A stretch of 32,621 nt of DNA, taken from the NCBI GenBank assembly GCA_012518595.1, contig JAAYRV010000139.1, positions 1 through 32,621 on the forward strand, read 5' to 3'. The number at the start of each line of letters is the position of its first letter. The stretch's first letter is position 1. The notes beneath the pieces were generated by a model. The model did not search any database and was not told the origin of the DNA. It was given only the letters and a program-made list of their open reading frames with translations. Position numbers and translations under genes: made by a program. Of this stretch, positions 16,743 to 21,157 are shown piece after piece. The DNA is from Bacillota bacterium. Lineage in GTDB: Bacteria > Bacillota > SHA-98 > UBA4971.

Positions 16743-17765
16743 TCACCTTCTCCGAAGAGAGACACCGAGCATGTCAACGACTGTCCTTATTCTATTATAG
16801 ATCGTAGATTTATCAGATCCTGCAAATAGAAGACCTACTGCATTCATCTTCTCATCTACAAGCAGTGAGCCTGAATCTCCCCCTGCACCCATTTTGCCTG
16901 TAAGGATCTGGTCGGTGAAGGTCGCTGTTGCGTTGTCAGAGTAGATAACATTTACCGTGGCGTCAACCACCTGCACTTCTCCCTCGGTTACTCCCGTCGT
17001 TCGTCCGCTCTTCCTTACACGAAGCCCCAGGCCGGCCTCGCCTAAACCTTTTACCTCTCCCAACTCCAGTATGTCCCCGTCAATAAGCCGGGGGTTTGTC
17101 GGGCGGGCAAGCGCTGCATCCACCAGATTCGCAGTTCCGGCTAAGGACCTTGTAACTACCTCCACTCTGACCGGAGATCTGGTTGCGCTTAACCATTTAT
17201 TCATCGCCAGTTCAATAGATCTTGAAGCCATACACGCAGGAACCCGCCCGGTCATCTCGATAGGGATAAACCTTTCGAGATGAGCTATCTTATCCCGCTC
17301 CACTGTACCCCCGTCAGCCGCCCCGGGCTGAAGAATGGGATCTCCTTGCCGAGCCTTGCCGTCCTGTCCGGATGTGGCATTAGCTAACACGTGATTGTTG
17401 GATAGAATAAGCGGTTCACCTGTTTTCACATCCCAGACAACCGCGCCAAAAGTGCCTGCGGTCGTCCTATAATGTCCTAGGCTCACCCCGGGACGAGCAG
17501 GTCTCATCTGGGACTGTCTTTCACTCAGGAACCTAAGCTCACCGACTTCAATAACATCTGTAGGCACACCCCGCAATTCACTGGGCACCATATCCTCGGC
17601 TTTGAGGCGTAGCTTAGGAAGCTTCTTCTTAACCATGACGACTATACATTCACGTGAAGTCCTAACCCCTGCGGTAGTCTTGTAACCTCGTCCTACTCCT
17701 ACCACATTTTCCATGGACATGATCTGCCAGGTAGCATCCTTGAGAACATCAAAGATTTCGTCCAT
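16743..17765 (-). CDS. Trypsin-like serine protease family protein
   Basis: NVVGVGRGYKTTAGVRTSRECIVVMVKKKLP, LILSNNHVLA (catalytic His region), MGAGGDSGSLLVDE (catalytic Ser region). Confidence 0.75.
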   Translation of the reverse strand: MDEIFDVLKDATWQIMSMENVVGVGRGYKTTAGVRTSRECIVVMVKKKLPKLRLKAEDMVPSELRGVPTDVIEVGELRFLSERQSQMRPARPGVSLGHYRTTAGTFGAVVWDVKTGEPLILSNNHVLANATSGQDGKARQGDPILQPGAADGGTVERDKIAHLERFIPIEMTGRVPACMASRSIELAMNKWLSATRSPVRVEVVTRSLAGTANLVDAALARPTNPRLIDGDILELGEVKGLGEAGLGLRVRKSGRTTGVTEGEVQVVDATVNVIYSDNATATFTDQILTGKMGAGGDSGSLLVDEKMNAVGLLFAGSDKSTIYNRIRTVVDMLGVSLRRR

Positions 17766-17796: not shown

Positions 17797-18996
17797 TCAG
17801 AGCCTGTTCTTGATTACTGAAGCCACTGCAGCCCCGGCATTGACCAAACCCGCGCCCTGTTGCTCCCGGGGGAATGCATCCATGATTGTGGCGGTCTCAT
17901 AGATAAGCCCCTCCATTTCTTTCGCTGACAGCCCAGGCGCTATAGAGAGCACCAACGCAGCAACGCCTGCCACATGTGGGCAAGCCATGGAAGTCCCGCT
18001 AAGTGTCTTATACCGTCTTCCCTTATATGTAGAGTAAATGTTCTGTCCGGGTCCTGTTATATCAACTTCCGGTCCGGAGCTGCTAAATTCAGCGATTCGT
18101 CGGTCCTCAGTAGACGCAGCCACTGCCACCACATGTGGATCCCGCGCCGGGTACAAAACAGTGTTTCGGCCGCCTGTATTGCCTGAAGCTGCCACCAAGA
18201 GAATACCGGATTCTGCCGCCTTACTGATGGCGAGCGCAAGGGCTTTGCCTGAGTCGGAAGTCCCGAAACTCATATTGATGATATGGACACCCTGCTCTAT
18301 GCACCACTGGATACCCTGGATAATATCGGATGTCATACCTTTTCCTCTTGAGTCAAAGGATTTCACTGCGTAGATATGGGCTTCCGGGGCAACCCCGACG
18401 ACTCCGAAGCCGTTGTCAAGGGCAGCAATTATGCCTGCCACGTGTGTGCCATGTCCGTTGTCATCTTCTACGCCTTCTGTCTCGGAAATCGCGTCAAACC
18501 CGGCTCTTACGTTCCCTGCCAAATCAGGGTGGCTCACGTTCACTCCGGTATCCACCACCCCGACCCGCACTCCCCTCCCCGTAGCATGTGCCCAAGCCGA
18601 AGGAGCGTTTGTCCCCATCACACCCCATGGTACTTTTTGCTTGGACCACTCCAGGCATCGCACTCTGGAACATCGCGACCTCACTTGTGTGCCGGGCGCC
18701 GATGAGCCCACTATTGTAAGGACGGTATCGTCCTCTATCCATTTCACCTCACTGCGGAGCGCAAGAAGCGCCATAGCCTTGTCCTCTTCCGGGAAGACAC
18801 ATGCGGACGCGTTGATTAGAGGCAGCGCTTTCCTCACACATCCTCCGCAGCTTTTCACTATAGAGCCGTGGTCCTCTGGATCTGTCTCCGCGTCGAATAT
18901 CACAATTTTCCTGCGCTGTGACGCATGGGTAGGTCTCCCTGCCCTACCTGCCACGGCAGCAACTGCCATGATGTAGGCTATGATAACAGAGAGCAT
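17797..18996 (-). CDS. Subtilisin-like S8 serine protease with propeptide
   Basis: VRVGVVDTGVNVSHPDLAGNV, DDNGHGTHVAGIIAA, LSGTSMACPHVAGVAALVLS; signal/TM at N-terminus; SD AAAGGAGG upstream. Confidence 0.93.
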   Translation of the reverse strand: MLSVIIAYIMAVAAVAGRAGRPTHASQRRKIVIFDAETDPEDHGSIVKSCGGCVRKALPLINASACVFPEEDKAMALLALRSEVKWIEDDTVLTIVGSSAPGTQVRSRCSRVRCLEWSKQKVPWGVMGTNAPSAWAHATGRGVRVGVVDTGVNVSHPDLAGNVRAGFDAISETEGVEDDNGHGTHVAGIIAALDNGFGVVGVAPEAHIYAVKSFDSRGKGMTSDIIQGIQWCIEQGVHIINMSFGTSDSGKALALAISKAAESGILLVAASGNTGGRNTVLYPARDPHVVAVAASTEDRRIAEFSSSGPEVDITGPGQNIYSTYKGRRYKTLSGTSMACPHVAGVAALVLSIAPGLSAKEMEGLIYETATIMDAFPREQQGAGLVNAGAAVASVIKNRL

Positions 18997-19078
18997 GTAA
19001 GGCTCCCTCCTTTGCTTCGGTTATCGGATGTTAAATGATATTCCACGGGTTCATAATGGGTGATGAGATGTCTAGGAA

Positions 19079-19106
19079 GAGGCCACGACTCATCCGCCGT
19101 GGCCTC
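19079..19106. terminator. Hairpin between the microprotein cluster and the S8 protease
   Basis: GAGGCCACG-actcatccgc-CGTGGCCTC; perfect 9-bp arms, 10-nt loop; poor U-tract on either strand. Confidence 0.45.
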
Positions 19107-19146: not shown

Positions 19147-19260
19147 TTACATTTGAGGGTTGTAACGTGTTGCGATTACCTTAGCAATAGTAATTAGCTG
19201 AGGTATCATCAAGATGAACAGGAAAACCACCAGCCACCAGTTCTCCAGTTGAAGACTCAC
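19147..19260 (-). CDS. Single-TM microprotein 1 (37 aa, GTG start)
   Basis: Translated by hand: (M)SLQLENWWLVVFLFILMIPQLITIAKVIATRYNPQM*; GAGGAGG Shine-Dalgarno about 8 nt upstream; shares LExWW..LFIL..P with the next two ORFs. Absent from the ORF track (below length cut-off). Confidence 0.65.
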   Translation of the reverse strand: MSLQLENWWLVVFLFILMIPQLITIAKVIATRYNPQM

Positions 19261-19300
19261 TGCTTCGCCCTCCTCTGCATCCCTACCATTTGAGGTCGTC

Positions 19301-19402
19301 TTACACCTTCTTCGACCAGATTGGGAAGAAGACTAAGAATATCGGAACCAGCAAAATGAAGAGTAGTATGATTATCCACCAGAACTCCAATTCCTGTGTC
19401 AT
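19301..19402 (-). CDS. Single-TM microprotein 2 (33 aa)
   Basis: MTQELEFWWIIILLFILLVPIFLVFFPIWSKKV*; SD AAAGGAGG 8 nt upstream; paralogous to 19483-19569. Confidence 0.75.
   Translation of the reverse strand: MTQELEFWWIIILLFILLVPIFLVFFPIWSKKV
19341..19402. repeat. 62-bp imperfect direct repeat, copy A
   Basis: About 57/62 identical to 19508-19569 by eye; encodes the N-terminal parts of microproteins 2 and 3. Confidence 0.85.
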
Positions 19403-19482
19403 TACGTAGCCCTCCTTTCACAGCATGCGTTGCGTGCCGTGATATGCGAAGTCTTTGTTATTTTCGTGATACACTGTGTATC

Positions 19483-19569
19483 CTATATGCACATGAAAAT
19501 CAGGAACAACGGAATCAGCAAAACGAAGAGCAGTATGATTATCCACCAGAATTCCAATTCCTGTGTCAT
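19483..19569 (-). CDS. Single-TM microprotein 3 (28 aa)
   Basis: MTQELEFWWIIILLFVLLIPLFLIFMCI*; SD GAGGAGG 7 nt upstream; first 19 residues differ from microprotein 2 only by I/V exchanges. Confidence 0.75.
   Translation of the reverse strand: MTQELEFWWIIILLFVLLIPLFLIFMCI
19508..19569. repeat. 62-bp imperfect direct repeat, copy B
   Basis: See copy A (19341-19402). Confidence 0.85.
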
Positions 19570-19623: not shown

Positions 19624-19632
19624 TATAATATG
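19624..19632 (-). promoter_or_regulatory. Candidate -10 element CATATTATA upstream of microprotein 3
   Basis: Minus strand CATATTATA fits CATANNNTA (sigma-K-type -10); no convincing -35. Confidence 0.3.
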
Positions 19633-19936
19633 GAGTCATGTTTTGCTTTGCTCCTAGAGTTTCATAGATATTACGTATTGTCCCTTGTCTTTTCATTCAT
19701 GAACTGTGTGTCACGTTCAGGAATGGTAGGACCCGGAGTAAAAAACGCAAGGATAGCGCTTACAAGGAATAAAACGCTCCCAATGAGATTTAGGATATTC
19801 ATAATAGAGGATAAGTTGTTCTGGCTATCTCCGGGACAGCGGACCCACCTTTTAGCAAGAACCATGGCTTTGTCATCCCCCCATACGCATGCCTGCAACA
19901 CCCGGGGAATCGGCTGATGTGCGTCAATCGTCAGTC

Positions 19937-20299
19937 TTACCGGTCATCGTCAGTCCTACCGGGATCCTGGGAAACGTCATTCGCCGTCTCAAACAACCTC
20001 TGAATTTCAGGTGGGACTTCCCCAAGCTCCAGGCTGGAAATGGCTTCTATAGCCATGCTCATAATGTAGTTTCGAGTCTCATCAGGCATCGATGCCAGAA
20101 AATCCTGAGCCACCTTTGCCATTTCATTCACATCTTCCAGCTGAATATCAGTGTAACCAAGGTCATGTAGCATCGAACGGATCTTTTCGGGATCACCGGA
20201 GGATAAACCAAACTCGCGAATCAAGTCATTTAGCGCTTCTCTGTCCAACCGGTTTCCGCCGGCAAGAAATTGGGATATTAGATCGTTAACTTCACTCAT
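19937..20299 (-). CDS. Hypothetical protein, helical (120 aa)
   Basis: Complete ORF MSEVNDLISQFLAGGNRLDREALNDLIREFGLSSGDPEKI..; soluble, acidic; no family recognised. Confidence 0.6.
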   Translation of the reverse strand: MSEVNDLISQFLAGGNRLDREALNDLIREFGLSSGDPEKIRSMLHDLGYTDIQLEDVNEMAKVAQDFLASMPDETRNYIMSMAIEAISSLELGEVPPEIQRLFETANDVSQDPGRTDDDR

Positions 20300-20551
20300 G
20301 GGTCTTACGTCCCACCTTTCAGGCGTCTTGCGCGAACTGATGCCCTGGGTAACCCCAGTGATTTACAGGTCTTATATTATTGATAGATCTTATTCCAACC
20401 AGGTCTCCTTGGTGATATCGGCATTGTGTTAGGCGCACACACAAGTACAGATTCGAATTGGTCTTGCCCTGCACGGAATCGCAACTGAAGGTCATATAAT
20501 ATAATGCTAATTGAAACTCATAGTCCCCAATCTGGATAACGGGGTGGTCTT

Positions 20552-21157
20552 ATGGATCTACAAGCAATCCATGATGCAATATCCCAGCAGAATTTAATTA
20601 TGCAGAGACTGGACCGCAACATGAAGAGAATCGAGGAATCATATAGCCGTGTATCCTCGAGACTCGATGCGCTGGAAGCTAAAGCTGAAACACCTGAAGC
20701 CAATACCGGCGAAAGCCGGCGACAGAAAAGGGCTCAGGCAAGTAGTATTTTAAGCAATAAGAAGACTGATGACACTGAAATGACAAACAACAGAGCAGAA
20801 GACGCACCAGAAGATACTGTGGAAAGAGAAAACAAAGGCCCGGCCCAGACGGCCCCGGCTTTGACTCAACGCGTAAAATCCGCTATCCGTAGTTCTATTC
20901 AAGACGGAAGCGTCACTCACACCCTTGACAAGTTTCAAGCCTCAATAAAACTGACAGACGAGGCGACCGGCGCGCTCTCAGAAATTGCGTCCCTTGTCAA
21001 AGCATCACTGGACCAGGATCAAGACGTCATACAACTGGGATCAGCGCCTATTCCCGGTGGATCACTGGCGCTATTGTTGGAAATGGCGAAGACGCCGCAG
21101 TTTCAGCGTTTCATTGCAAATGTAGTAGCCCAAGCGCTTAGGGAAGCTGAAGCCTAG
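20552..21157 (+). CDS. Hypothetical protein with N-terminal coiled coil, acidic linker and C-terminal helical domain (201 aa)
   Basis: SD GGGGTGG upstream; MDLQAIHDAISQQNLIMQRLDRNMKRIEESYSRVSSRLDALEAK..; no family recognised. Confidence 0.7.
   Translation: MDLQAIHDAISQQNLIMQRLDRNMKRIEESYSRVSSRLDALEAKAETPEANTGESRRQKRAQASSILSNKKTDDTEMTNNRAEDAPEDTVERENKGPAQTAPALTQRVKSAIRSSIQDGSVTHTLDKFQASIKLTDEATGALSEIASLVKASLDQDQDVIQLGSAPIPGGSLALLLEMAKTPQFQRFIANVVAQALREAEA

Follow-up and report, generated by a model that had tools for sequence, protein, structure and literature searches.

A recurrent family of tandem membrane microproteins, probably linked to sporulation, in spore-forming Bacillota

The stretch of Bacillota DNA analysed here (32,621 nucleotides; hereafter the window) carries a cassette of three micro-ORFs, termed A, B and C, on the minus strand between the genes of an S8 subtilase and an uncharacterised protein, H120. 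The genes of the locus are arranged as follows:

17797-18996, minus strand: S8 subtilase (subtilisin-like), a co-conserved neighbour recognised by library match and locus comparison
19147-19260, minus strand: WW microprotein C, MSLQLENWWLVVFLFILMIPQLITIAKVIATRYNPQM, 37 aa, GTG start (ORF scan, orthologues, pN/pS 0.27)
19301-19402, minus strand: WW microprotein B, MTQELEFWWIIILLFILLVPIFLVFFPIWSKKV, 33 aa, ATG start (ORF scan, orthologues, pN/pS 0.20)
19483-19569, minus strand: WW microprotein A, MTQELEFWWIIILLFVLLIPLFLIFMCI, 28 aa, ATG start (ORF scan, orthologues, pN/pS 0.15)
19671-19865, minus strand: TM65, a fourth small single-span ORF, MVLAKRW...NILNLIGSVLFLVSAILAFFTPGP..., 64 aa (pN/pS 0.37)
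19937-20299, minus strand: H120, an uncharacterised helical protein and frequent partner of the cassette (low-confidence model)
20552-21157, plus strand: H201, an uncharacterised coiled-coil protein with the conserved C-terminus TPEFQxxxAxxLxxxL (locus comparison and model)

The ORF scan recovered exactly the three consecutive minus-strand micro-ORFs of the original prediction, each with the GGAGG Shine-Dalgarno sequence that had been placed 7-8 nt before its start codon. When ORFs were required to encode 24-50 aa, to follow a Shine-Dalgarno sequence and to reach a maximal 17-residue hydropathy of at least 2.6, A, B and C were the only ones to pass in the 32.6-kb window. When the interval was shuffled 1000 times with its dinucleotides preserved, 0.002 ORFs passed on average, and three at once never appeared (0/1000). 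The original prediction had also suggested a dN/dS comparison; pooled over four species, pN/pS is 0.151 for A, 0.199 for B and 0.272 for C, and all three are under purifying selection. That they are real coding genes is virtually beyond doubt. The proteins share an acidic N-terminus, an interfacial Trp-Trp pair, a helix of Leu, Ile, Val and Phe with a central Pro, and a variable, often basic tail; at the search sensitivity used, A, B and C are the only WW copies in their own genome. Downstream of C, a GC-rich inverted repeat (GAGGCCAC/GTGGCCTC, 19079-19106, minus strand) forms a possible terminator, which is partially conserved in one congener (G004) and not in two others (G001 and G002).

The conserved TM65 gene, which the original prediction did not include, lies directly upstream of the cassette, and relatives of its product (NILNLIGSVLFLVSAILAFF) occur in four distant loci (G392, G400, G346 and G384). 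TM65 resembles the YrhK-like domain (PF14145) by a weak match around its span with E values of 0.0011 and 0.011, in which the best score of 19.2 bits stays below the curated cut-off of 26.1. The AlphaFold models of H120 (pLDDT 57) and of H201 (pTM 0.29; a confident N-terminal helix and a poor remainder) were both of too low a quality for a fold search. Against defence models, the S8 protein matched just generic subtilase and IetS-type models, and a role in defence was rejected. Directly after the subtilase lies a second, family-conserved serine-protease-like gene (16743-17765, minus strand) with sub-threshold matches to NAL1_N and Trypsin_2. Two further conserved elements, a block strongly conserved in four species upstream of the subtilase (CATTATGANCC...GAATATCATTTANCATCNGATAA, 18997-19060, minus strand) and an element upstream of H120, match no sigma consensus known to us.

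Profile searches covering 399 genomes of the phylum, plus one order, revealed further members. Counting all loci of the analysis, WW micro-ORFs occur in 16 genera of eight family-level groups (f1, f15, f23, f30, f93, f109, f122 and f143; f and g labels were assigned by the search tool), with tandem copies in most loci. The many weak profile matches inside long frames were taken as chance and left out. Among the relatives of the window are several MAGs that go by the name Firmicutes bacterium or Bacillota bacterium (UBA4981, UBA5449, UBA6811 and others). Three congeners (G001, G002 and G004) keep all three copies in the same order, and three copies are present in 5/6 genomes of the sister genus (G007-G012), with two in G008. 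Within the family group of the window, M1, W8, W9, L14, F15, L17 and P20 are invariant; W8, W9, L14 and P20 stay so once the first more distant members join the alignment, and the most distant members keep the WW and sometimes lack the Pro. Distant members include MTETIGFWWIFILLLVIFLPLLLIFFIPLSTSK (G228) and the pair MTQELLWWFIIIIPVIIIIPIIFLFFLFPLNAK and MGGHGFNFWWLFIPIIVIIIIPIFFIFFIPLSAANA (genus g17, group f15). The sister genus has a further related micro-ORF, MTQEFYTLMWIILLCFIVFIPIIFLFFFFPLGSK, between H201 and sucD (L046:9541, plus strand; L047:10128, plus; L050:8645, minus), as well as solitary relatives outside the cassette, such as MAEITKPKPEWGWGGGFDWWWIIIIAIIVIVPFFFIFFLFPFGK (L136:6774, plus; L137:6607, minus; L138:3396, minus; L090:4859, plus).

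No family in Pfam, NCBIfam or PHROGs was matched by the WW microproteins, and a description of them was not found in the literature. A, B and C are three paralogous single-span membrane microproteins of one undescribed family. The proposal of a new multi-copy microprotein family thus holds, given conservation of W8-W9, L14 and P20 across families, tandem copies and the lack of a library match; homologues with the WW and Pro exist, and neither frame disruption in close relatives nor a match to a known family was found.

In distant groups, the WW ORFs recur with the S8 protein, H120 and H201, and in many cases with a TM65-like protein as well. An independent test, in which H120 was the sole query, led to loci in f30, f23 and f93 with adjoining WW-type micro-ORFs, several of which the WW profile had missed. 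Such loci, 660 kb in total, contain 77 hydrophobic micro-ORFs preceded by a Shine-Dalgarno sequence, and all except two of them belong to the WW family. Group f39 has S8, H120 and H201 and no WW ORF that passes the filter, so the partners can exist without the WW family, and in G392 a WW gene accompanies TM65 and H201 while S8 and H120 lie elsewhere. A phage or plasmid origin of the cassette was rejected, as no match to it was found on phage or plasmid records. We are highly confident that the WW microproteins form an undescribed multi-copy family in a conserved neighbourhood.

Promoter-like elements of the type used by sporulation sigma factors lie upstream of A and of H201:

19624-19632, minus strand: CATATTATA, a sporulation-sigma-type -10 element upstream of A (footprint over eight genomes of two genera)
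19647-19651, minus strand: GCAAA box at the -35 position, part of GGAGCAAA (footprint alignment and own-genome pattern search)
20493-20501, plus strand: CATATAATA, a -10 element of the sporulation-sigma type, upstream of H201 (without variation in four species of the genus)

Across the eight genomes, the CATATTATA footprint has one variable base, and in combination with its upstream box it occurs a single time in its own genome. The larger footprint, GGAGCAAA-N13-CCATATTATAGTA, is nearly invariant over two genera of the taxonomic family of the window, and group f15 has the footprint TAACC-N15-GCATANNCTA; in both of these mutually distant groups, little else is conserved around the -10 element. 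Within the 200 bases that precede the first WW gene, the motif CATANNNTA is present in 24/34 loci, which are phylogenetically non-independent and in part come from one genome or genus, compared to 40/823 control ORFs (4.9%) and 224/6800 random windows (3.3%). Its distance to the first WW gene is near-fixed within each genus. Ten of the 34 loci, among them those of groups f23, f109, f122 and f143, have no exact CATANNNTA.

In Bacillus subtilis, the sigma-K consensus is KCACM / GCATANNNTA and the sigma-E consensus is TYATATTT / KCATANANTN (PMC3416734). In the WW elements CATATTATA and GCATATGCTA, the second base that follows CATA does not fit sigma-E, whereas both elements agree with sigma-K. 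The -35 boxes vary from group to group and fit KCACM loosely; in two groups the spacing is 13 instead of 15. The H201 element has counterparts in f93 and f39; no sporulation-type -10 element was found upstream of TM65, NAL1, plsY, sucC or sucD, and most loci lack the same promoter element at the subtilase. A search for a sigma-70 promoter upstream of the cassette found none. Both the share of loci with CATANNNTA and the two footprints correspond, at the level of sequence, to a promoter of the mother-cell sporulation sigma type. Because the loci are non-independent, the -35 boxes differ and ten loci have no exact motif, we regard sporulation control of the WW cassette as likely rather than certain.

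The genomic background agrees with this reading. The genome of the window encodes SpoIVA, as do 49/49 genomes with a credible H120 match, which is a mild excess over the base rate of 338/399 (85%) in the sample; one further H120 match, inside a 1200-aa frame of G155, was left out of the 49. The sigma-K gene was found in 13/13 genomes of the family, of which 12, including that of the window, score over the curated cut-off. SpoIVA and sigma-K thus mark the carriers as sporulating organisms. G003, G005 and G006, three congeners in which sporulation markers are present, yielded no credible match to the cassette, so it is inessential for sporulation, an accessory part. The main text of a study of the Moorella spore proteome reports homologues of known spore proteins only (PMC8745062).

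On balance, we propose that the WW proteins are single-span sporulation microproteins, expressed in the mother cell, that would act at a spore-forming membrane, a reading we hold somewhat more probable than its alternatives taken together. Transcription of the cassette would take place in the mother cell at a late stage of sporulation, by RNA polymerase carrying a factor of the sigma-K (or sigma-E) type. The acidic N-terminus, the interfacial Trp residues, the one span with its central Pro and the often basic tail suggest, by the positive-inside rule, an N-out/C-in topology, and the proteins would insert in this orientation into a membrane of the mother cell or into the outer forespore membrane. 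There, together with the subtilase, H120 and H201, they might take part in assembling the spore envelope as small subunits with a scaffold or adaptor role. This last step is the weakest and is put forward tentatively, by analogy; envelope assembly is our best guess at a role. Small proteins such as SpoVM are assembly factors at the forespore membrane, and SpoVM and CmpA of B. subtilis are made in the mother cell and act at the forespore membrane or coat. The WW proteins share with these two a length below 40 residues and, as proposed, synthesis in the mother cell and the site of action. Unlike SpoVM, which is an amphipathic surface helix, they have fully hydrophobic spans; they also come as tandem paralogues and match no library model.

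Other readings of the locus have to be weighed against this one. The WW proteins could be small accessory subunits of a constitutive vegetative membrane complex, like CydX or KdpF, and have no connection to sporulation. Their size and single span would suit such a role, as would the strong constraint on the helix; however, the neighbourhood has no constant gene for a large membrane complex, each locus has two to three paralogues, and the promoter footprint is of the sporulation type, which leaves this reading unlikely. A late mother-cell lysis device, in which holin-like micro-peptides and the subtilase are released at the end of sporulation, is the most interesting rival to a scaffold or adaptor role. 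The sigma-K-type timing suggested by the promoter footprints would agree with it, and the peptides are hydrophobic and adjoin a subtilase. Nevertheless, no murein hydrolase is constant among the neighbours and the subtilase does not share the promoter element in most loci, and we consider lysis rather improbable.

Short, hydrophobic, single-span ORFs in tandem, each with a strong Shine-Dalgarno sequence, also recall type I toxins of the Ibs, Ldr, TxpA and Fst kinds, whose genes would each be silenced by an antisense RNA. In contrast to such systems, the WW loci are off phage and plasmid records, and one chromosomal neighbourhood is conserved over many families. An RNA family search gave nothing above cut-off, and no sigma-70-type antisense promoter able to silence all three genes was found, the one marginal plus-strand match (19181-19209) lying inside C. 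A toxin-antitoxin system is very improbable. We give equally little credence to leaderless bacteriocin-like or signal peptides that the subtilisin-like S8 protease next to them helps to process or export. The tandem arrangement of similar peptides of 28-37 aa and the adjoining protease fit this idea. Leaderless bacteriocins are usually cationic, whereas the WW peptides are neutral to acidic and uniformly hydrophobic; their core shows strong conservation from one species to another instead of diversification, in some genomes (G392) the WW genes are not next to the subtilase, and neither an ABC exporter nor an immunity gene was found among the neighbours in the ORF list of the window.

Least probable of all, and rejected, is descent from the small sporulation membrane proteins of the YjcZ type (tiny_TM_bacill) by strong divergence: the two groups are alike in being very small, multi-copy, sporulation-linked proteins with one hydrophobic span, an LFILL stretch, Gly near the N-terminus in some distant WW members and sporulation-type promoters at the WW loci, but the YjcZ model TIGR01732 matched neither the window ORFs and six diverse relatives at E values up to 5 nor anything in the genome of the window (G000) at E values up to 0.1, and the profile-profile probability of 8.5 is at the level of column-shuffled controls (up to 8.3), compared to 96.1 between the WW profile and its own distant members. 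The YjcZ proteins have neither the WW nor the Pro, and the WW proteins lack the GFALIVVLFILLIIVGA core and, as the original prediction had recognised, the Gly/Tyr-rich N-terminus, in place of which those of the window have MTQELEFWW and MSLQLENWW; their recurrent neighbours S8, H120 and H201 also set them apart. Of the hint at YjcZ-like sporulation proteins, the link to sporulation gained independent support from the sigma-like promoter footprints, while the homology failed in both the model and the profile tests.

Taken together, the WW family recurs across many spore-forming Bacillota, in a conserved neighbourhood and behind promoter-like sequences of the spore-formation type, and the locus is probably linked to sporulation. 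A possible, though doubtful, further reading is that the subtilase, H120, H201, TM65 and the WW proteins together make up a late-sporulation module, so far undescribed, with which anaerobic Bacillota would remodel a membrane of the sporangium, in envelope maturation or mother-cell lysis; such a module would be absent from the Bacillus model and would therefore have been missed. Sporulation beyond Bacillus and Clostridioides is known mainly via homologues of model genes, and lineage-own modules, above all genes of fewer than 40 codons, consequently stay invisible. The locus described here is recurrent, bears a promoter-like footprint and allows start site, sigma dependence and timing to be predicted exactly; it also provides a first context for four unannotated protein families.
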